Shown here piece after piece: positions 18,867 through 25,944 of a stretch of DNA of 54,425 nucleotides. The stretch lies in contig JAIYCU010000022.1 of the NCBI GenBank assembly GCA_027487835.1, positions 1-54,425 of the forward strand. Direction: 5' to 3'. Position numbers and translations under genes: made by a program. The notes under the pieces are model-generated. The model had not been told where the DNA came from and made no database searches. It saw only the letters and a program-made list of their open reading frames with translations. How positions within the stretch are numbered: position 1 is the first letter of the stretch; every line of letters starts with the position of its first letter. Origin of the DNA: Bacteroidota bacterium. GTDB lineage: Bacteria; Bacteroidota; Bacteroidia; UKL13-3.

Positions 18867-19667
18867 TTAAAAAAGTACTTTGGTGGTCCACCAACCTAAA
18901 TTGGTTTGAACCGAAACAATGATAATGCAATTTTGGGCAGAGATTGGGTAAATTAAATAATTGCCCTTTCCTGCTTCAGTAATTGAATAAGTGATTTCCG
19001 TTCCTTGAATATTATATAACTTAAGGGATTTTAGGTCGAAAGGAGAAGTTAATGTTAAGGCACTTTCAGTTTGCCTTAGGAAAATGTTTTGTTTCCAAGC
19101 TTCCTCCTTAAGTGAAGTTTTTAATTGCTGCAGGTTAATGGAGTCTAGATAGACTTTATCTCCTTGTGTATTATTATCATTATTAGCCATAACGCCTGCC
19201 GCATAAAATGTTATACTTTCGTTTTCTGGATTTTTTGGAGCCTGCCATTTAAACCTCCACTTTTTGGTATTTAAGCCTGTGTTGCCATATTGATTATGCG
19301 TTACATAATCGCTAACAGAAACGCCACTGTCACCTATATTTATAAATGTACCTGCATTGTTAAAACTAATACCTTTAAAGCGAGCGTTTACAGCAAATCC
19401 AAACTTACTTGTGCCAGGGTTTGTACTGATAACTTCAATATTATAAATGCTATCTGGCATAAAGGTACTATGATTGTTTTCTCCATTTATCAAAATGGTA
19501 ATTGAGCCTTGCTTATCTGGATTGGTGTTTCCGATATGACAAGATGAGCAGTTACCTTCAGAGGGTGCGCCTGTCATATTAAAACCTGCGATTGAGCTCG
19601 CATAAAGCGAATAATAGACACATTTTAGGGTCAAAAATGCAAAAAAAATCCCTGTAATCTTTTTCAT
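18867..19667 (-). CDS. Choice-of-anchor V / reelin-like domain protein with T9SS type A sorting domain
   Basis: A 266-residue exported protein; signal peptide at 1-23 after the start at 19667 (MKKITGIFFAF). The mature N-terminus reads GAPSEGNCSSCHIG, the Cys-rich opening of the choice-of-anchor V family, and contains one CXXCH (CSSCH) motif that could bind haem c. A reelin-like beta sandwich (about 45-165) includes YTFxAAGVxAN-like residues. The last ~75 residues (FDLKSLKLYNIQGTEI and onward) look like a type A sorting domain for the type IX system. Its first codons also form the infB terminator, described separately. One GGTTTGAACC copy is near the 3' end. Confidence 0.8.
   Translation of the reverse strand: MKKITGIFFAFLTLKCVYYSLYASSIAGFNMTGAPSEGNCSSCHIGNTNPDKQGSITILINGENNHSTFMPDSIYNIEVISTNPGTSKFGFAVNARFKGISFNNAGTFINIGDSGVSVSDYVTHNQYGNTGLNTKKWRFKWQAPKNPENESITFYAAGVMANNDNNTQGDKVYLDSINLQQLKTSLKEEAWKQNIFLRQTESALTLTSPFDLKSLKLYNIQGTEITYSITEAGKGNYLIYPISAQNCIIIVSVQTNLGWWTTKVLF
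18903..18912 (+). repeat. GGTTTGAACC decamer, copy 6
   Basis: Exact match within the 3' part of the T9SS type A cargo gene; the coding strand reads V-Q-T. Confidence 0.9.
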
Positions 19668-19676
19668 TACAGGGAT
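19641..19676 (-). terminator. Intrinsic terminator of infB, overlapping the next gene's start codon
   Basis: A perfect 11-bp stem (19648-19658 with 19666-19676) closes a 7-nt loop, and on the minus strand is followed by TTTTTTTT. It lies 30 bases after the infB stop. The downstream gene's ATG (19665-19667) is partly inside the stem, and codons 1-9 make up the hairpin and T-run. Confidence 0.85.
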
Positions 19677-19679
19677 AGA

Positions 19680-19687
19680 CAAAATTA
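19680..19687 (-). promoter_or_regulatory. Possible -7 box for the T9SS cargo gene
   Basis: The minus strand reads TAATTTTG between the infB stop and the hairpin, 12 bases upstream of the ATG. No -33 TTG is evident, so this is weak. Confidence 0.3.
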
Positions 19688-19705: not shown

Positions 19706-22700
19706 CTATTTGAGCGTCCGTTTTACTTCAACCTCTTCGTAAGCTTCTACAAAATCACCTTCTCTTAAATCGTTATAATTATGAATGGTTAAACCACAGT
19801 CGTAGCCACTTGCAACTTCCTTAACATCGTCTTTGAAACGTTTTAATGATGACAAGGTACTTGAGTAAACAACCACTCCATCTCTGATTAGTCTTACTTT
19901 GGCATTTCTTAAAATCTTTCCATCTGTTACCATACAACCTGCTACTGCGCCAACTTTAGTGATTTTAAATACTTCTCTAATCTGTGCATTTCCAAGTATT
20001 TTTTCTTCGATGGTTGGGGCTAATAGACCTTCAATTGCAGCTTTAATCTCTTCAATTGCATTGTAAATTACAGAGTACATACGAATATCGATAGACTCTT
20101 GCTCTGCTAGTTTTCTTGCTTGAGAACTTGGCCTAACTTGGAATCCAACAATGATAGCATCTGAGGCTGAGGCTAGCATTACATCACTTTCAGAAATTTG
20201 CCCAACTGCTTTATAGATTACACTTACCTGAACTTCTTCAGTTGATAATTTAATTAATGAGTCTGACAATGCTTCTACTGAGCCATCCACGTCACCTTTA
20301 ACAATTACTTTTAATTCTTTAAAGTTTCCAATTGCTAGACGTCTTCCAATTTCATCTAATGTAATATGTTTATTAGTTCTAATGCCTTGTTCGCGTTGTA
20401 ATTGTTGGCGTTTATTGGCAATCTCTCTAGCTTCTGGTTCGGTTTTAGTGATTATAAATCTATCACCTGCTTGTGGCGCGCCATCAAAACCAAGAATTAC
20501 TACAGGTGTAGAAGGACCTGCTTCTGCCATTTTTTTGCCTCTTTCATCAAACATGGCGCGTACTTTTCCACTATTTACCCCTGCCAAAATTGGGTCTCCC
20601 ACGCGCATGGTTCCGCTTTGAACCATAACTGTAGTTACAATACCTCTTCCTTTGTCTAAAGTTGCTTCAATTACATTACCAACTGCTCTTTTATTAGGAT
20701 TAGCCTTAAGGTCTAGCATTTCTGCTTCAAGTAAAACCTTGTCAAGTAAGGATTCAATACCAACTCCTTTTTTAGCTGAAATTTCTTGACACTGATATTT
20801 GCCACCCCATTCTTCAACCAAAATGTTCATGGCTGAAAGTTGTTCTCTAATCCTATCTGGATTGGCAGCATCTCTATCAATTTTGTTTAACGCAAAAACG
20901 ATAGGAACACCTGCTGCCAAGGCATGTGAAATAGCCTCTTTTGTTTGAGGCATTACGCTATCATCAGCTGCGATTACAATAATTACAACGTCTGTTAGTT
21001 TTGCACCCCTTGCACGCATCGCGGTAAAGGCCTCGTGGCCTGGTGTATCTAAAAAGGTGATTTTCTTACCGCTTTCTAATTTTACTTCATAAGCACCAAT
21101 ATGCTGGGTAATACCACCTGCTTCACCCTTTACTACATTTGCACTTCTAATATAATCTAAGAGAGATGTTTTTCCATGATCCACGTGTCCCATTACTGTT
21201 ACAATTGGAGCTCTTGGTTCTAGTGTGCTTGGATCGTCAATATCTTCTTCAACAGCTTCCACCATTTCAGCAGAAACAAATTCTACTTCAAAACCAAATT
21301 CCTCAGCCACAATTGCAATTGTCTCTGCATCTAATCTTTGGTTAATAGAAACCATCATTCCTAAACTCATACATGCACTAATGATTTGTGTCACTTGAAC
21401 ATTCATCATATTTGCAAGTTCATTGGCAGTTACAAACTCAGTTGCCTTAAGTTTATTCTTTTCCATTTCCTCCTGAAGCATTTGTTCTTCTCTTTCTGAG
21501 GCTTTATCTGAACGTTTTTGCTTACGAATTTTAGACCTTACCTGACCAATATTAGGATTTTTACTTCCTGGATTTAGTCTAGCTAAGGTAGCTTTTAATT
21601 TATCTTGAATTTCTTTATCTGAAATTTCAGTTTTTACTTCAGGTTTAGCGTTTCTGTTATTTTGATTTCCACCTTTATTGAACCTGTTATTTCCACCTTG
21701 CTGATTGTTTCCTTGCCCAGGGCCTCTGTTAAATCCACCACCTTGTTGATTGTTTCCTTGTCCTGGACCTCTGTTAAATCCTCCAGCTGGTCTATTTCTT
21801 GGGTCAAAATCTTTGGCTGGATCAACTTTTTGAATGCCTGTTTGGTCTACCTGTTTGCGCTTACGTTTGCGTTTGGCATCAATACTACTATCGCTACTTG
21901 CAACTGGATTCGCTTTTTTAGGCGGATCTTGTTTCAATACAATTTTTCCTAAAACCTTTAAGCCATCTAATTTTTCATATTTAACGTCCATTACTTTGAC
22001 TTCATCATCTGTAATGGTTTCTTCAGTTGCAGTTGGGATGGTAATCTCTTCAGCTATTGGTGCTATGGAAGCTTCAACAACTGGCTCAAGTTTTACTGGC
22101 TCCGGATTAACAACGATTGGTTCAGTTTTAACCTCAATTGGTAATGGCTCCTCGATTTTCTTTACTGGCTTTTTGAATTTCTTGTTTGCTTCAAGGTCAA
22201 TTTTACCAATAACCTTTAAGCCCATTGATTCTTCTGGTGCAGTTTCACTTTCAGGAAGTTGAATAGGCGTTATTACCTCACTTTCAACCTTAGGTACAAC
22301 TACCTCCTTCTTTTCAACTTGCACTTCTGCTAGAGGCGTTTCTACCACTTTAATGGCTTCAATAGGTGCTTCAACAACAGGTGCAGGAATAACAGGTTCT
22401 TCTCTTAAAACAATTGGCTCGGCCTTTGGCAATTCTGGCTCTGCTTTCTTGGCGACTCCTTGCGTGTTTACTAATCCACTTTTTATTAAAATACCATCTT
22501 CTTCTTCCTCATCCTCTGCAACAGGAGCCTTTGGCTTAGGTATTTCAATTACGGTATTTTGAGGCTTAATGCGCTCTTTGCCGAGTTTGTTTGCCTCTTG
22601 TTTTACCTTCTTTTCAGAAGAGTACTCGGCCAAAAGCAAACTAAATTGCTCTTCTGTAAGCTTGGTAGTTGGCTTAGCTTCTATTTGATGGCCTTTCTTA

Positions 22701-22786
22701 GCCAAAAATTCTACTGCGGTTGTTAAACCCACATTAAATTCTTTGGCTGCTGCACTCAATCGTTTTGTTCCTGTTGTTTCGCTCAT
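19706..22786 (-). CDS. infB: Translation initiation factor IF-2
   Basis: A 1026-residue GTPase that delivers initiator tRNA to the 30S subunit. An N-terminal IF2N-like domain (about 1-55) is followed by a long, low-complexity, charged linker (about 60-420) rich in E, P, V and K. The linker includes two near-identical 14-residue units ([14 protein letters not shown]). The G domain has GHVDHGKT (533-540), DTPGH (580-584) and NKID (634-637), then the usual beta-barrel domains II to IV. The gene ends the rimP-nusA-infB operon and is followed by a terminator. No defect is seen. Confidence 0.98.
21693..21779 (-). repeat. Two 42-nt direct repeats in the infB linker
   Basis: Units at 21693-21734 and 21738-21779 differ at only a few positions, separated by one codon. 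Each codes the 14-residue unit [15 protein letters not shown] partial third unit (NNRFNKGG) follows in the protein. It is in the flexible linker, so length can vary without harm. Confidence 0.9.
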
Positions 22787-22865: not shown

Positions 22866-24101
22866 TTATTCGAATTCGGCTTCCAAGATTCTGCGCACTT
22901 CTTGCACAGTTTCTTCTTCCAATTCGGTTCTTCTAACAAGTTCTTCATTTGTCATATTGAGAACTGCTTTGGCGGTGTCAAGTCCCAAGCCTTTTAGTTC
23001 ATCAATAATCCAACTATCAATTTCATCTGAAAATTCATCTAAGTCAATATCTTCCTCTTCAACTTCCGCTTCGCGGTAAACATCAATTTCAAATCCAACT
23101 AATTTGCCAGCAAGTTTAATGTTATGACCGCCTTTACCAATTGCTAAAGATACTTGATCTGGTTTAAGATACACACTCACTCTCTTTTTAATTTCATCAA
23201 TCTTTATGCTGCTAATTTTAGCTGGACTCAAAGCTCTTTGAACCAATAATGAGGTGTTTGCTGTATAGTTGATTACGTCAATGTTTTCGTTTCTAAGTTC
23301 TCTTACAATGCCGTGAATACGTGAGCCTTTCATCCCCACGCAAGCTCCAACTGGGTCAATTCTATCATCATAACTTTCAACAGCAACTTTTGCACGTTCC
23401 CCTGGTTCACGTACAATTTTCTTGATGCTGATTAATCCATCTATAATTTCAGGAACTTCTTGCTCAAACAATCTTTCCAAAAGAACTGGTGAGGTGCGAG
23501 AAAGTATAATTCTTGGGTTGCCATTGTGCATTTCTACTTTAAGTACTACTGCACGAATTGCATCTCCTTTTTTATAGAAATCTGCTGGTATCATTTCGGT
23601 TTTTGGAAGCAATAATTCATTGCCTGCATCATCCAATACCATGATTTCTTTTTTCCAAATTTGGTAAACTTCACCACTAATAATTTCACCAACACGGTCT
23701 TTGTAACGCTTATAAAATTCGTCTTTTTCTAGTTCTAATACTTTTGAAAGCAAGGTTTGACGGGCTGATAGAACCGCGCGTCTTCCAAAAATAGCTAAGC
23801 CAACTTCTTTCGTTACATCTTCCCCTATTTCAAAGTCTGGTTCAATTTTTTGGGCCTCAGAAATTGAAATTTGGGTGTTTTCATCCTCAACCTCGCCCTC
23901 ATGCACAATTACTCTATTGTGCCAAATCTCTAAGTCACCACTTTTGTCGTTAATAATTACGTCAAAATTTTCATCATTATTGAATCTTTTACGTAACATG
24001 CCGCGAAAAACATCTTCTAATACTCGCTGCATTGTTGCGCGATCGATGTTTTTAAACTCTTTGAATTCGCTAAACGAATCAATTAATCCTGCACTATGCA
24101 T
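22866..24101 (-). CDS. nusA: Transcription termination/antitermination factor NusA
   Basis: A 411-residue protein of the standard bacterial core length: N-terminal RNA polymerase-binding domain (about 1-130), S1 domain (about 132-200), KH1 and KH2 (about 215-350, with GACVGMKGSRI and SLAIGKGGHNIKLA), and a short acidic C-terminal helix-hairpin-helix segment ending EEETVQEVRRILEAEFE. NusA binds elongating RNA polymerase, increases pausing and stimulates intrinsic termination. It sits 20 bases after rimP and 79 bases before infB, the classic conserved order. Autoregulation through the leader terminator at 24590-24618 is an inference. Confidence 0.97.
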   Translation of the reverse strand: MHSAGLIDSFSEFKEFKNIDRATMQRVLEDVFRGMLRKRFNNDENFDVIINDKSGDLEIWHNRVIVHEGEVEDENTQISISEAQKIEPDFEIGEDVTKEVGLAIFGRRAVLSARQTLLSKVLELEKDEFYKRYKDRVGEIISGEVYQIWKKEIMVLDDAGNELLLPKTEMIPADFYKKGDAIRAVVLKVEMHNGNPRIILSRTSPVLLERLFEQEVPEIIDGLISIKKIVREPGERAKVAVESYDDRIDPVGACVGMKGSRIHGIVRELRNENIDVINYTANTSLLVQRALSPAKISSIKIDEIKKRVSVYLKPDQVSLAIGKGGHNIKLAGKLVGFEIDVYREAEVEEEDIDLDEFSDEIDSWIIDELKGLGLDTAKAVLNMTNEELVRRTELEEETVQEVRRILEAEFE

Positions 24102-24121: not shown

Positions 24122-24586
24122 TTAATTAAATGATACTTGAACAATTGCTGTTTCCATTTCTTCAAACAATATTTCTTTTAGGGTAGGTTCAGGCGCATTG
24201 TATGCCTTTTTTTTATCCTTGAGTTGTATAGCAATTCCATTGGCATTTACTGAAATTAACTTCCCTAAAAATTCTGTTTTTGCTTTTAATACAATACTCA
24301 GTTCACGGCCAATGTGCTTATTATATTGCCTCAACACTTTGAGGGGTCTGTCTACTCCAGGGGATGATACTTCTAAAGTGTATGGGGTCAAACCAAAATC
24401 TATTTCATCCAATTTTAGCGATAGAAATTTATTTAGCTTCCTGCATTGTTCTATGGTTAAGGGCCCTTCGCTATCTATATAAACCATAAGCTTCCCACCT
24501 GCATTTTTATGCTCAACTTCAACAATGAAAACCTCAGGTTCGAGCGCTTCTTTGCTCCATTCTACTATTTGTTCTGTTATCTGCAT
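24122..24586 (-). CDS. rimP: Ribosome maturation factor RimP
   Basis: A 154-residue protein needed for 30S maturation. The alpha/beta N-terminal domain reads VEVEHKNAGGKLMVYIDSEG then LTIEQCRKLNKFLS; the YTLEVSSPGVDRPL segment near 77-90 is the family signature, followed by an SH3-like C-terminal domain. It is the first gene of rimP-nusA-infB. There is no Shine-Dalgarno sequence: the start codon comes 3 bases after the T-run of an intrinsic terminator. Confidence 0.95.
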   Translation of the reverse strand: MQITEQIVEWSKEALEPEVFIVEVEHKNAGGKLMVYIDSEGPLTIEQCRKLNKFLSLKLDEIDFGLTPYTLEVSSPGVDRPLKVLRQYNKHIGRELSIVLKAKTEFLGKLISVNANGIAIQLKDKKKAYNAPEPTLKEILFEEMETAIVQVSFN

Positions 24587-24589
24587 GGT

Positions 24590-24618
24590 AAAAAAAGAGG
24601 GGACTTTTGGTCCCCTCT
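24590..24618 (-). terminator. Leader terminator/attenuator ahead of rimP-nusA-infB
   Basis: A 9-bp GC-rich stem (24596-24604 with 24610-24618) closes a 5-nt loop and is followed on the minus strand by six to seven T. It ends 3 bases from the rimP ATG. It can end the upstream gene, yet the rimP promoter lies upstream of it, so the operon mRNA must pass through it. Confidence 0.85.
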
Positions 24619-24636
24619 AAATCTTTTAATACGGTG

Positions 24637-24666
24637 CAAATATAGTTTCAATTTGCAATTTGTCAA
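24637..24666 (-). promoter_or_regulatory. Promoter of the rimP-nusA-infB operon
   Basis: On the minus strand, TTG (24664-24666), 19 bases, TATATTTG (24637-24644): a full match to the Bacteroidota consensus. The predicted start point is near 24630, giving about 45 nt of leader, most of which is the terminator hairpin. Confidence 0.72.
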
Positions 24667-24672
24667 ATTTAT

Positions 24673-25944
24673 TTATTTGCCATTGAAGAGCTTATACCTT
24701 TCATATTGCTCTTTACCAAGCTTATTTATTTCTTCCATTAGCTTTTCAAATCTTTTAGGTGCATCAAAAGTTGAGAACTTCGCATACATAGTTTTTGCCT
24801 TAGCGTACTCATCCACCCAAATATAAGCCTCCATTAGATTAACGTAAATGGCCAAGGTTACTTCCTCATTAATGCGCGCCTTTTTGTTTTTCATGTCTGA
24901 TTCTGTTAGCGCCTTCTCATAAATTGCAATGGCTTCTTGAATTTTCACCTTTGCGTCTTTCTTTTCGTAATCTTCAGATAAGCCATTATAACCTTCTACC
25001 AACGCTAAGTAGGCAGTAGCCATATCTGTATAATCTTGTTTTTTATCCTTAATTTGGTAAATAATAGTTTCTCTTTTAGTTTTCTTAAAGGCATAATCTG
25101 AGTTCAATAAGTTTTGAATAACCTTTAAACCATTATCTACAGAAGTAACTTCTAAATTATCAATGGTTTTTTCTTGGTTGTAACTCCACCAGCTGCGGAT
25201 AGCACTTTCGCTGGTGTATTCTCCTGGAATGTTATAATACATATCTTGAGAAATCTCTCCCGGAACTTCATTGTAAACTACTCCTTGGGCAGTTTCAACC
25301 TTTAAGGTGATTAATCTTTTATAGGGAACTTTCATAAAGTATGCCTTGTAAGGTGTTGAAGTTCCATTGGCAACTTTGGTCATATCCTTTACAGTTAATT
25401 CTGGCTCTTTCACTTCAAGTTCTCCCAAAGTGGCGGTTATGGTAACTGGATTGTTTGTGCCATTTGAGAAGCCTTCAAGCTTCAAATAAGTGCCAGCTAA
25501 TTGTTCATTATTAAATGATTTTATTAGTTTAGGTGTTGAAAAGGTGTTCTTGTAAGGCGGAGATGGAATTCTCTTTACAGGCTTTCCACCATTTGCTAAT
25601 TGTTGGTCAGCAATCTTTTGAATGGTAGATTTCTTTTCATAAATCTCAAGCTCTTTTAGGTATTGTGCTTCGGCATCTTTAACCCTTTGTGGATAGGCTG
25701 CAAGTTCTGCTTGGTACTCTTGGTCTGCTTTAGCAACTTTCTCATTGTGCTCATCCATTATTTTTTTGTTTGCCTCTTCTACATTGTAAATAACTTTACT
25801 GTTGTAGTTTTTAATGGATTTGTCTAGCGGTTTTTTTGGCAATTGAATAAATTCAAAATTAGTTTCTGTTTTGTCTACATCCTGAGCATTAAGCAAATTG
25901 CCCATCATTAACAAACAAACAATTAATAATTTAATGGTTTTCAT
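24673..25944 (-). CDS. Exported protein of unknown function with coiled coil and helical-repeat C-terminus
   Basis: A 423-residue protein I do not recognise. A signal peptide (1-20, ending NLLNAQ) indicates export. Residues about 55-105 are highly charged and helical (NKKIMDEHNEKVAKADQEYQ and onward), probably a coiled coil. A proline-containing segment (RIPSPPYKNTF) precedes a beta-rich middle (about 125-260). The C-terminal ~150 residues are helical, resembling TPR pairs (AIAIYEKALTESD, AYIWVDEYAKAKTMY). It is monocistronic: own promoter upstream, terminator downstream. It is divergent from the DUF4421 pair, which may be a functional link or only position. Confidence 0.6.
   Translation of the reverse strand: MKTIKLLIVCLLMMGNLLNAQDVDKTETNFEFIQLPKKPLDKSIKNYNSKVIYNVEEANKKIMDEHNEKVAKADQEYQAELAAYPQRVKDAEAQYLKELEIYEKKSTIQKIADQQLANGGKPVKRIPSPPYKNTFSTPKLIKSFNNEQLAGTYLKLEGFSNGTNNPVTITATLGELEVKEPELTVKDMTKVANGTSTPYKAYFMKVPYKRLITLKVETAQGVVYNEVPGEISQDMYYNIPGEYTSESAIRSWWSYNQEKTIDNLEVTSVDNGLKVIQNLLNSDYAFKKTKRETIIYQIKDKKQDYTDMATAYLALVEGYNGLSEDYEKKDAKVKIQEAIAIYEKALTESDMKNKKARINEEVTLAIYVNLMEAYIWVDEYAKAKTMYAKFSTFDAPKRFEKLMEEINKLGKEQYERYKLFNGK

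Follow-up and report, generated by a model that had tools for sequence, protein, structure and literature searches.

The window analysed here, by which we mean the whole 54,425-nucleotide (nt) stretch of contig JAIYCU010000022.1 from a Bacteroidota genome (GCA_027487835.1), carries on its minus strand a promoter, a hairpin and a T tract (together, the cassette), followed in that order by the operon rimP-nusA-infB. The features of this locus are:

24664-24667, minus strand: −33 box TTTG, by direct reading of the sequence
24637-24644, minus strand: −7 box TATATTTG (consensus TAnnTTTG), 19 bases after TTTG
24630-24634, minus strand: predicted transcription start, at about 24632, inferred from the box-to-start distance in PMC9723704
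24596-24618, minus strand: terminator hairpin AGAGGGGAC-CAAAA-GTCCCCTCT, 9 bp, from the sequence, a terminator scan, the fold and relatives
24590-24596, minus strand: T tract of seven T, one of which also pairs in the stem
24122-24586, minus strand: rimP (Pfam RimP_N, 2.4e-14)
22866-24101, minus strand: nusA, 411 amino acids (Pfam NusA_N, 1.4e-30; KH_5; S1)
19706-22786, minus strand: infB, for IF2 (Pfam IF-2, 6.7e-41)
24673-25944, minus strand: upstream gene of the same strand, 423 amino acids, no Pfam match

The promoter that the initial annotation had described as TTG-N19-box is indeed there, as TTTG-N19-TATATTTG at 24667-24637, and so is the 9-bp GC-rich hairpin, whose offset from the predicted start, given as 12 nt, comes out at about 14. 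The six to seven T said to precede a rimP ATG three bases on, with no Shine-Dalgarno sequence, are seven T, then ACC, then the ATG at 24586, which indeed lacks a Shine-Dalgarno. The start is put near 24632 because the −7 box of Flavobacterium psychrophilum lies at −12 to −5, as the available text of PMC9723704 has it, and a transcript terminated in the T tract would then be some 42 nt long. The 43-nt predicted leader (24632-24590) folds as a single hairpin at −16.5 kcal/mol (z −3.6), which the best structure extends by weak A-U pairs, and its 5′ arm contains GGGGAC. Since the 9 nt between hairpin and ATG are too short for a second promoter, transcription from the promoter upstream has to read through the hairpin to reach rimP.

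A scan of 12 kb for E. coli-type promoters gave 47 matches (37.8 in shuffled sequences), the best of them this promoter (11/12), and the hairpin tops a list of 17 terminator-like sites in the same length, where shuffles give 9.3. An 8-bp stem of this sequence with a loop of 3-8 occurs at a single place in the 3.38-Mb genome, which rules out a hairpin repeated throughout it. About 454 kb, made up of the window and 20 control stretches of 20 kb each taken from genomes of its family, contain 199 genes preceded by 60 nt or more of upstream space; promoter, terminator and start come in this order at one of them, the window's rimP. It is their recurrence in relatives, however, that puts promoter and hairpin together far beyond chance.

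For this recurrence we collected 130 loci, 30 and 20 of them from the window's family and 80 named ones found through NusA, a collection biased towards relatives of the window's NusA. Three without a rimP match were dropped (L033, truncated by the end of its contig; L070, whose rimP and hairpin exist but escaped the search; L100, which has no rimP), and removal of 10 duplicates from the remaining 127 left 117 distinct loci. In 106 of these the leader contains a strict terminator, preceded at 8-36 nt by a TAnnTTTG box in 97/106, as against 2 of the 151 other terminator-like hairpins of the same loci, a control set that includes hairpins within genes. Relaxing the hairpin rule while requiring a G run gives 114/117 loci with the hairpin, and 104 of those 114 have the box, where 200 shuffles average 3.5 and reach 10 at most. 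TTG at about the −33 distance is seen in 101/108 relatives having the −7 box, a count without a chance control. The 5′ arm contains GGGG in 97 of the 106 leader hairpins, which were found without a sequence filter, compared to 9 of the 151 control hairpins. Among 25 sequences of the near set, the same four have A-T in place of G-C at two stem pairs, probably through one event. At L052 and L054, 63-64 nt separate promoter box and terminator, with an apparent small extra hairpin between them, and such a longer leader might hold another control element.

Beyond these relatives, a class-wide draw of 144 genomes provided one RimP-bearing genome from each of 57 other families. Promoter, hairpin and T tract precede rimP in 52/57 with loops of up to 8, and in 53 with loops of up to 16, the added locus being L254; the same rule is satisfied at 2/342 control gene starts. 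The suggestion that relatives should be examined for a terminator conserved at this place is thereby answered in the affirmative. Imperfect versions, seen by eye only, are present at L219 (a long loop) and L233 (a mismatch). Most 5′ arms read GGGG and then AC, GC or CC, and the opposite arm changes to match; the table of stem pairs, built from stems picked for pairing and a G run, shows variety and is not proof. Alignments with misplaced 5′ arms, or with both strands mixed, did not enter the counts. Model R1 matched 203/295 genomes, and among the 30 best-per-genome loci returned 24 are at rimP-nusA, the others being L142, L148, L149, L154, L155 and L160 (the genome of L160 has another match, L168, at rimP-nusA). 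Seven further non-rimP matches were fetched, of which six lie just past the stop of an open reading frame (ORF), like ordinary terminators (L163-L167, L169). R1 alone is thus not specific for the rimP leader.

The simplest account of such a hairpin would be that it terminates or insulates the upstream gene, the promoter ahead of it being a coincidence, and the window itself invites this, given that the 423-amino-acid gene runs in the same direction and ends 54 nt before the hairpin. Judged by an ORF caller that is crude, and that also serves the gene-start and T-tract comparisons, the nearest upstream ORF has the same direction at 69/114 loci, the opposite one at 42/114 and was not found at 3/114. 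The cassette is kept at 41 of the 42 loci with an opposite-strand ORF, seven of which overlap the hairpin and may be false; with clear divergent genes only (at least 600 nt, no overlap) box and hairpin are kept in 25/26. An insulator-only role is ruled out by this persistence, and the account as a whole is very improbable. The proposal that the hairpin also insulates the operon survives as a side role at most, and in the window it may also stop read-through from the 423-amino-acid gene. The arrangement of promoter and hairpin is therefore not chance, nor merely the terminator of the gene upstream.

If the cassette belongs to the operon, the question of which gene it goes with can be approached through the loss of neighbours. 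A RimP_N match (E 0.001) is missing in 12/144 genomes of the class-wide draw; G085, with neither a nusA nor a rimP match, and G151, whose rimP is diverged (E 1e-38), were set apart. In the remaining ten there is no RimP in the 1.4 kb before nusA (0.4 kb in G177, at a contig end), infB is behind nusA in all ten, and the cassette of box, hairpin and T tract stands directly before nusA in 9/10. These nine comprise four genomes of family f15, three of f45 and one each of f24 and f62; loops are of 10-12 nt in f15 and f45, and the box of f45 is 51-58 nt away. Outside the sample, a termite-gut metagenome-assembled genome of 1.4 Mb and unstated completeness (L100) has no RimP_N match up to E 1, the cassette before nusA and infB behind it. 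The loci with no rimP before nusA, from f15, f24, f25, f45 and f62, are L191, L192, L193, L194, L195, L196, L198, L199, L200 and L201, besides L100.

The reverse case, departure of infB, is found in three genomes of one genus in f39 (G101, G140 and G173; loci L269-L275), which have infB on a separate contig from nusA. In G101 nusA lies well away from the ends of its contig, with an AAA-domain gene after it, and in G140 and G173 the ORF preceding infB is not nusA. By eye, rimP is preceded in all three by a box, a hairpin whose stem has a single A-C mismatch, and a T tract; the G140/G173 form folds at −10.3 kcal/mol (z −3.3). In front of the moved infB there is a promoter-like box, and no such hairpin was found. 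G073, G074, G105, G158 and G178, where infB is also off the nusA contig and contig ends may be the explanation, were left out of this case, as was G093, which has no infB match. In-frame stops were also seen within the nusA matches of G187 and G118 and the infB matches of G164, G130, G074 and G087. Because the cassette is kept after the loss of rimP (9/10) and, imperfectly, after the departure of infB, nusA is the gene it goes with; the rimP half of this conclusion is firm and the infB half comes from one genus.

This linkage also bears on the idea that the hairpin acts in the RNA as a binding site through which RimP, IF2 or another protein controls translation or stability of the mRNA of the first gene. 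A conserved G-rich arm, a hairpin so close to the ATG in the window and the retention of the hairpin with a poor T tract at some Alistipes and Tidjanibacter loci would all suit such an element. Its distance from the start codon, however, is loose (5-95% range 11-78 nt, with starts extrapolated from tblastn) whereas that from the promoter is tighter (13-30 nt), T is retained at most tail positions, and the cassette is kept without rimP and, imperfectly, without infB, so that we regard this explanation as quite unlikely.

The anatomy of an attenuator, i.e., a terminator transcribed as part of the operon and conserved together with its promoter, is well supported by these comparisons, and the layout first proposed, promoter then terminator before rimP, holds. 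RNA polymerase would start near 24632, finish the G-rich hairpin by about +37, and then either terminate at about +42, within the T tract, or read through into rimP-nusA-infB. With only some 14 nt ahead of the hairpin, neither a competing antiterminator nor a ligand sensor could fit, so any setting must act through how efficiently the terminator works. A riboswitch, a T-box and a leader-peptide attenuator do not fit the 43-nt, one-hairpin leader, where Rfam matches are far below threshold; in Bacteroides-type leaders, which contain ATG GAT GAA, the reading frame of a putative leader peptide is not kept.

NusA acts generally in pausing and termination and aids terminator hairpins. It would likely set the share of stops here, more NusA giving more early stops and hence less nusA. 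That the cassette stays with nusA when neighbours are lost points to NusA holding down its own synthesis. Termination in vivo for part of the transcripts, its dependence on NusA and the feedback are inferred from the linkage to nusA together with precedent. To a promoter-proximal intrinsic attenuator of the nusA operon, likely set by NusA, we give a probability of about two in three on the sequence evidence. A bolder version, in which promoter, G-armed hairpin and T tract form a phylum-wide meter of NusA with no other sensor, kept with nusA by selection despite rimP loss in several lineages and infB departure in another, and with NusA recognising the GGGG arm at the RNA exit channel, is tentative, its chances falling a little short of even.

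Several observations weigh against the attenuator set by NusA. One of the 57 families (L244) has no leader hairpin, and another locus (L237) has at best a weak one, which passes only with a more distant box. The rimP-less 0.5-Mb genome G087 (L193) has lost the hairpin and kept the box only. The infB case is confined to one genus, and the mismatched hairpins of f39 were missed by scripts needing unbroken stems. Finally, T in the first eight tail positions averages 6.26 after rimP hairpins (n = 114) and 6.30 after ordinary terminators of the family (n = 33), so that the T tract does not reveal any reliance on NusA, and the unbroken T7 of the window suggests strong termination that would not be tunable. 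The idea that NusA dependence would show as a weakened T tract thus found little backing in the comparison with ordinary terminators. An interruption at the fifth position is commoner in rimP tails, in 20/45 family loci against 6/33 (P 0.017, not corrected for kinship) and in 40/114 over all loci (P 0.09), a modest excess. T occupies positions 1-4 in 84-92% of the 114 relatives, a set preselected for at least 4 T in 10. In Alistipes and Tidjanibacter the hairpin of L060, L063, L077, L080, L084 and L106 is followed by TTTCGTAG in place of a full T tract, and it is kept as well with the poor tails TTTCATAG in L083 and TTTCGTGG in L090.

The unbroken T7, the ordinary T content and a leader fold with no sensor structure would equally suit a fixed brake, where the hairpin ends a constant share of transcripts and keeps the operon low without feedback by NusA. 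A weaker promoter would have the same effect, though, and a fixed brake leaves unexplained why the cassette stays with nusA, as well as the self-regulation of the E. coli operon by NusA set out in the available texts of PMC6511841 and PMC4448216. We consider it unlikely.

At the other end of the operon, the terminator-like hairpin that follows infB (19648-19676, minus strand; ATCCCTGTAATG...CAGGGAT, then a T tract) and the start of the next gene overlap, an ATG inside the hairpin being in frame with the MKKITGIFFA of ORF 18867-19682. With its start codon within a terminator, this second gene may be set by read-through.

A terminator before rimP and the idea of attenuation by NusA are already in print for other phyla. 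The rimP-leader of Naville and Gautheret 2010, as its main text (PMC2965389) presents it, is a terminator 4-130 nt before rimP-nusA-infB, for which NusA was proposed, and not proven, as the reader. The present hairpin resembles it in being short and directly ahead of the operon, in the G-rich 5′ arm that pairs with a C-rich 3′ arm (GGGc...gCCC; GGGG here, at the frequency given above), in the T stretch after the stem in window and relatives, and in having no antiterminator or larger conserved element. Unlike that description, the hairpin is tied here to a TAnnTTTG promoter, and its linkage to nusA is examined through neighbour loss. The main text of PMC2965389 contains neither 'Bacteroid' nor 'Flavobacter', and the species lists of its supplement may already include Bacteroidota. 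In Streptococcus agalactiae (gbs0413-gbs0418), going by the available text of PMC4448216, RNA-seq places termination 31 nt after the start and before rimP-nusA, and NusA feedback was proposed; this terminated RNA is similar to the one predicted here, but measured, and from another phylum. Closer to the window is the structured 5′ element before rimP in F. psychrophilum, listed in 2021 as lacking an Rfam hit and as present in further genera of the Flavobacteriaceae (PMC9723704). Phylum and place are the same; the passages covered give neither structure nor mechanism for it, and identity with the present hairpin is likely, if unproved.

In E. coli, the leader of metY-rimP-nusA-infB (Rfam RF01770) has GGGCTTTAGGCCC and T7 before rimP, as in the layout of the window, and, unlike the window, a further upstream hairpin, CCCCGATTTATCGGGG, with a T tract. 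RF01770, named for Gammaproteobacteria, has no match in the window at the gathering score, nor in 24560-24700 up to E 10, while the E. coli leader used as control matches at 102 bits. Work of 2016 on Bacillus subtilis reportedly dealt with NusA-dependent termination and self-control of NusA. The precedent named in the initial annotation, i.e., leader terminators before E. coli rimP-nusA-infB and autoregulation by NusA, is described in the part of PMC6511841 available, and PMC8060035, equally in part, has NusA assisting suboptimal hairpins and T tracts in B. subtilis. In our searches of open-licence papers we found no report of co-segregation of the cassette with nusA, and what is new here is this natural experiment, the linkage of the cassette to nusA through the loss of its neighbours.

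In conclusion, a leader of about 40 nt that contains a promoter and a terminator and nothing else would make one of the simplest possible feedback loops. With the co-segregation, the 2010 proposal of the rimP-leader becomes more specific, in that the element belongs to nusA, and the loci described here could serve to test feedback by NusA outside the phyla where it was studied.
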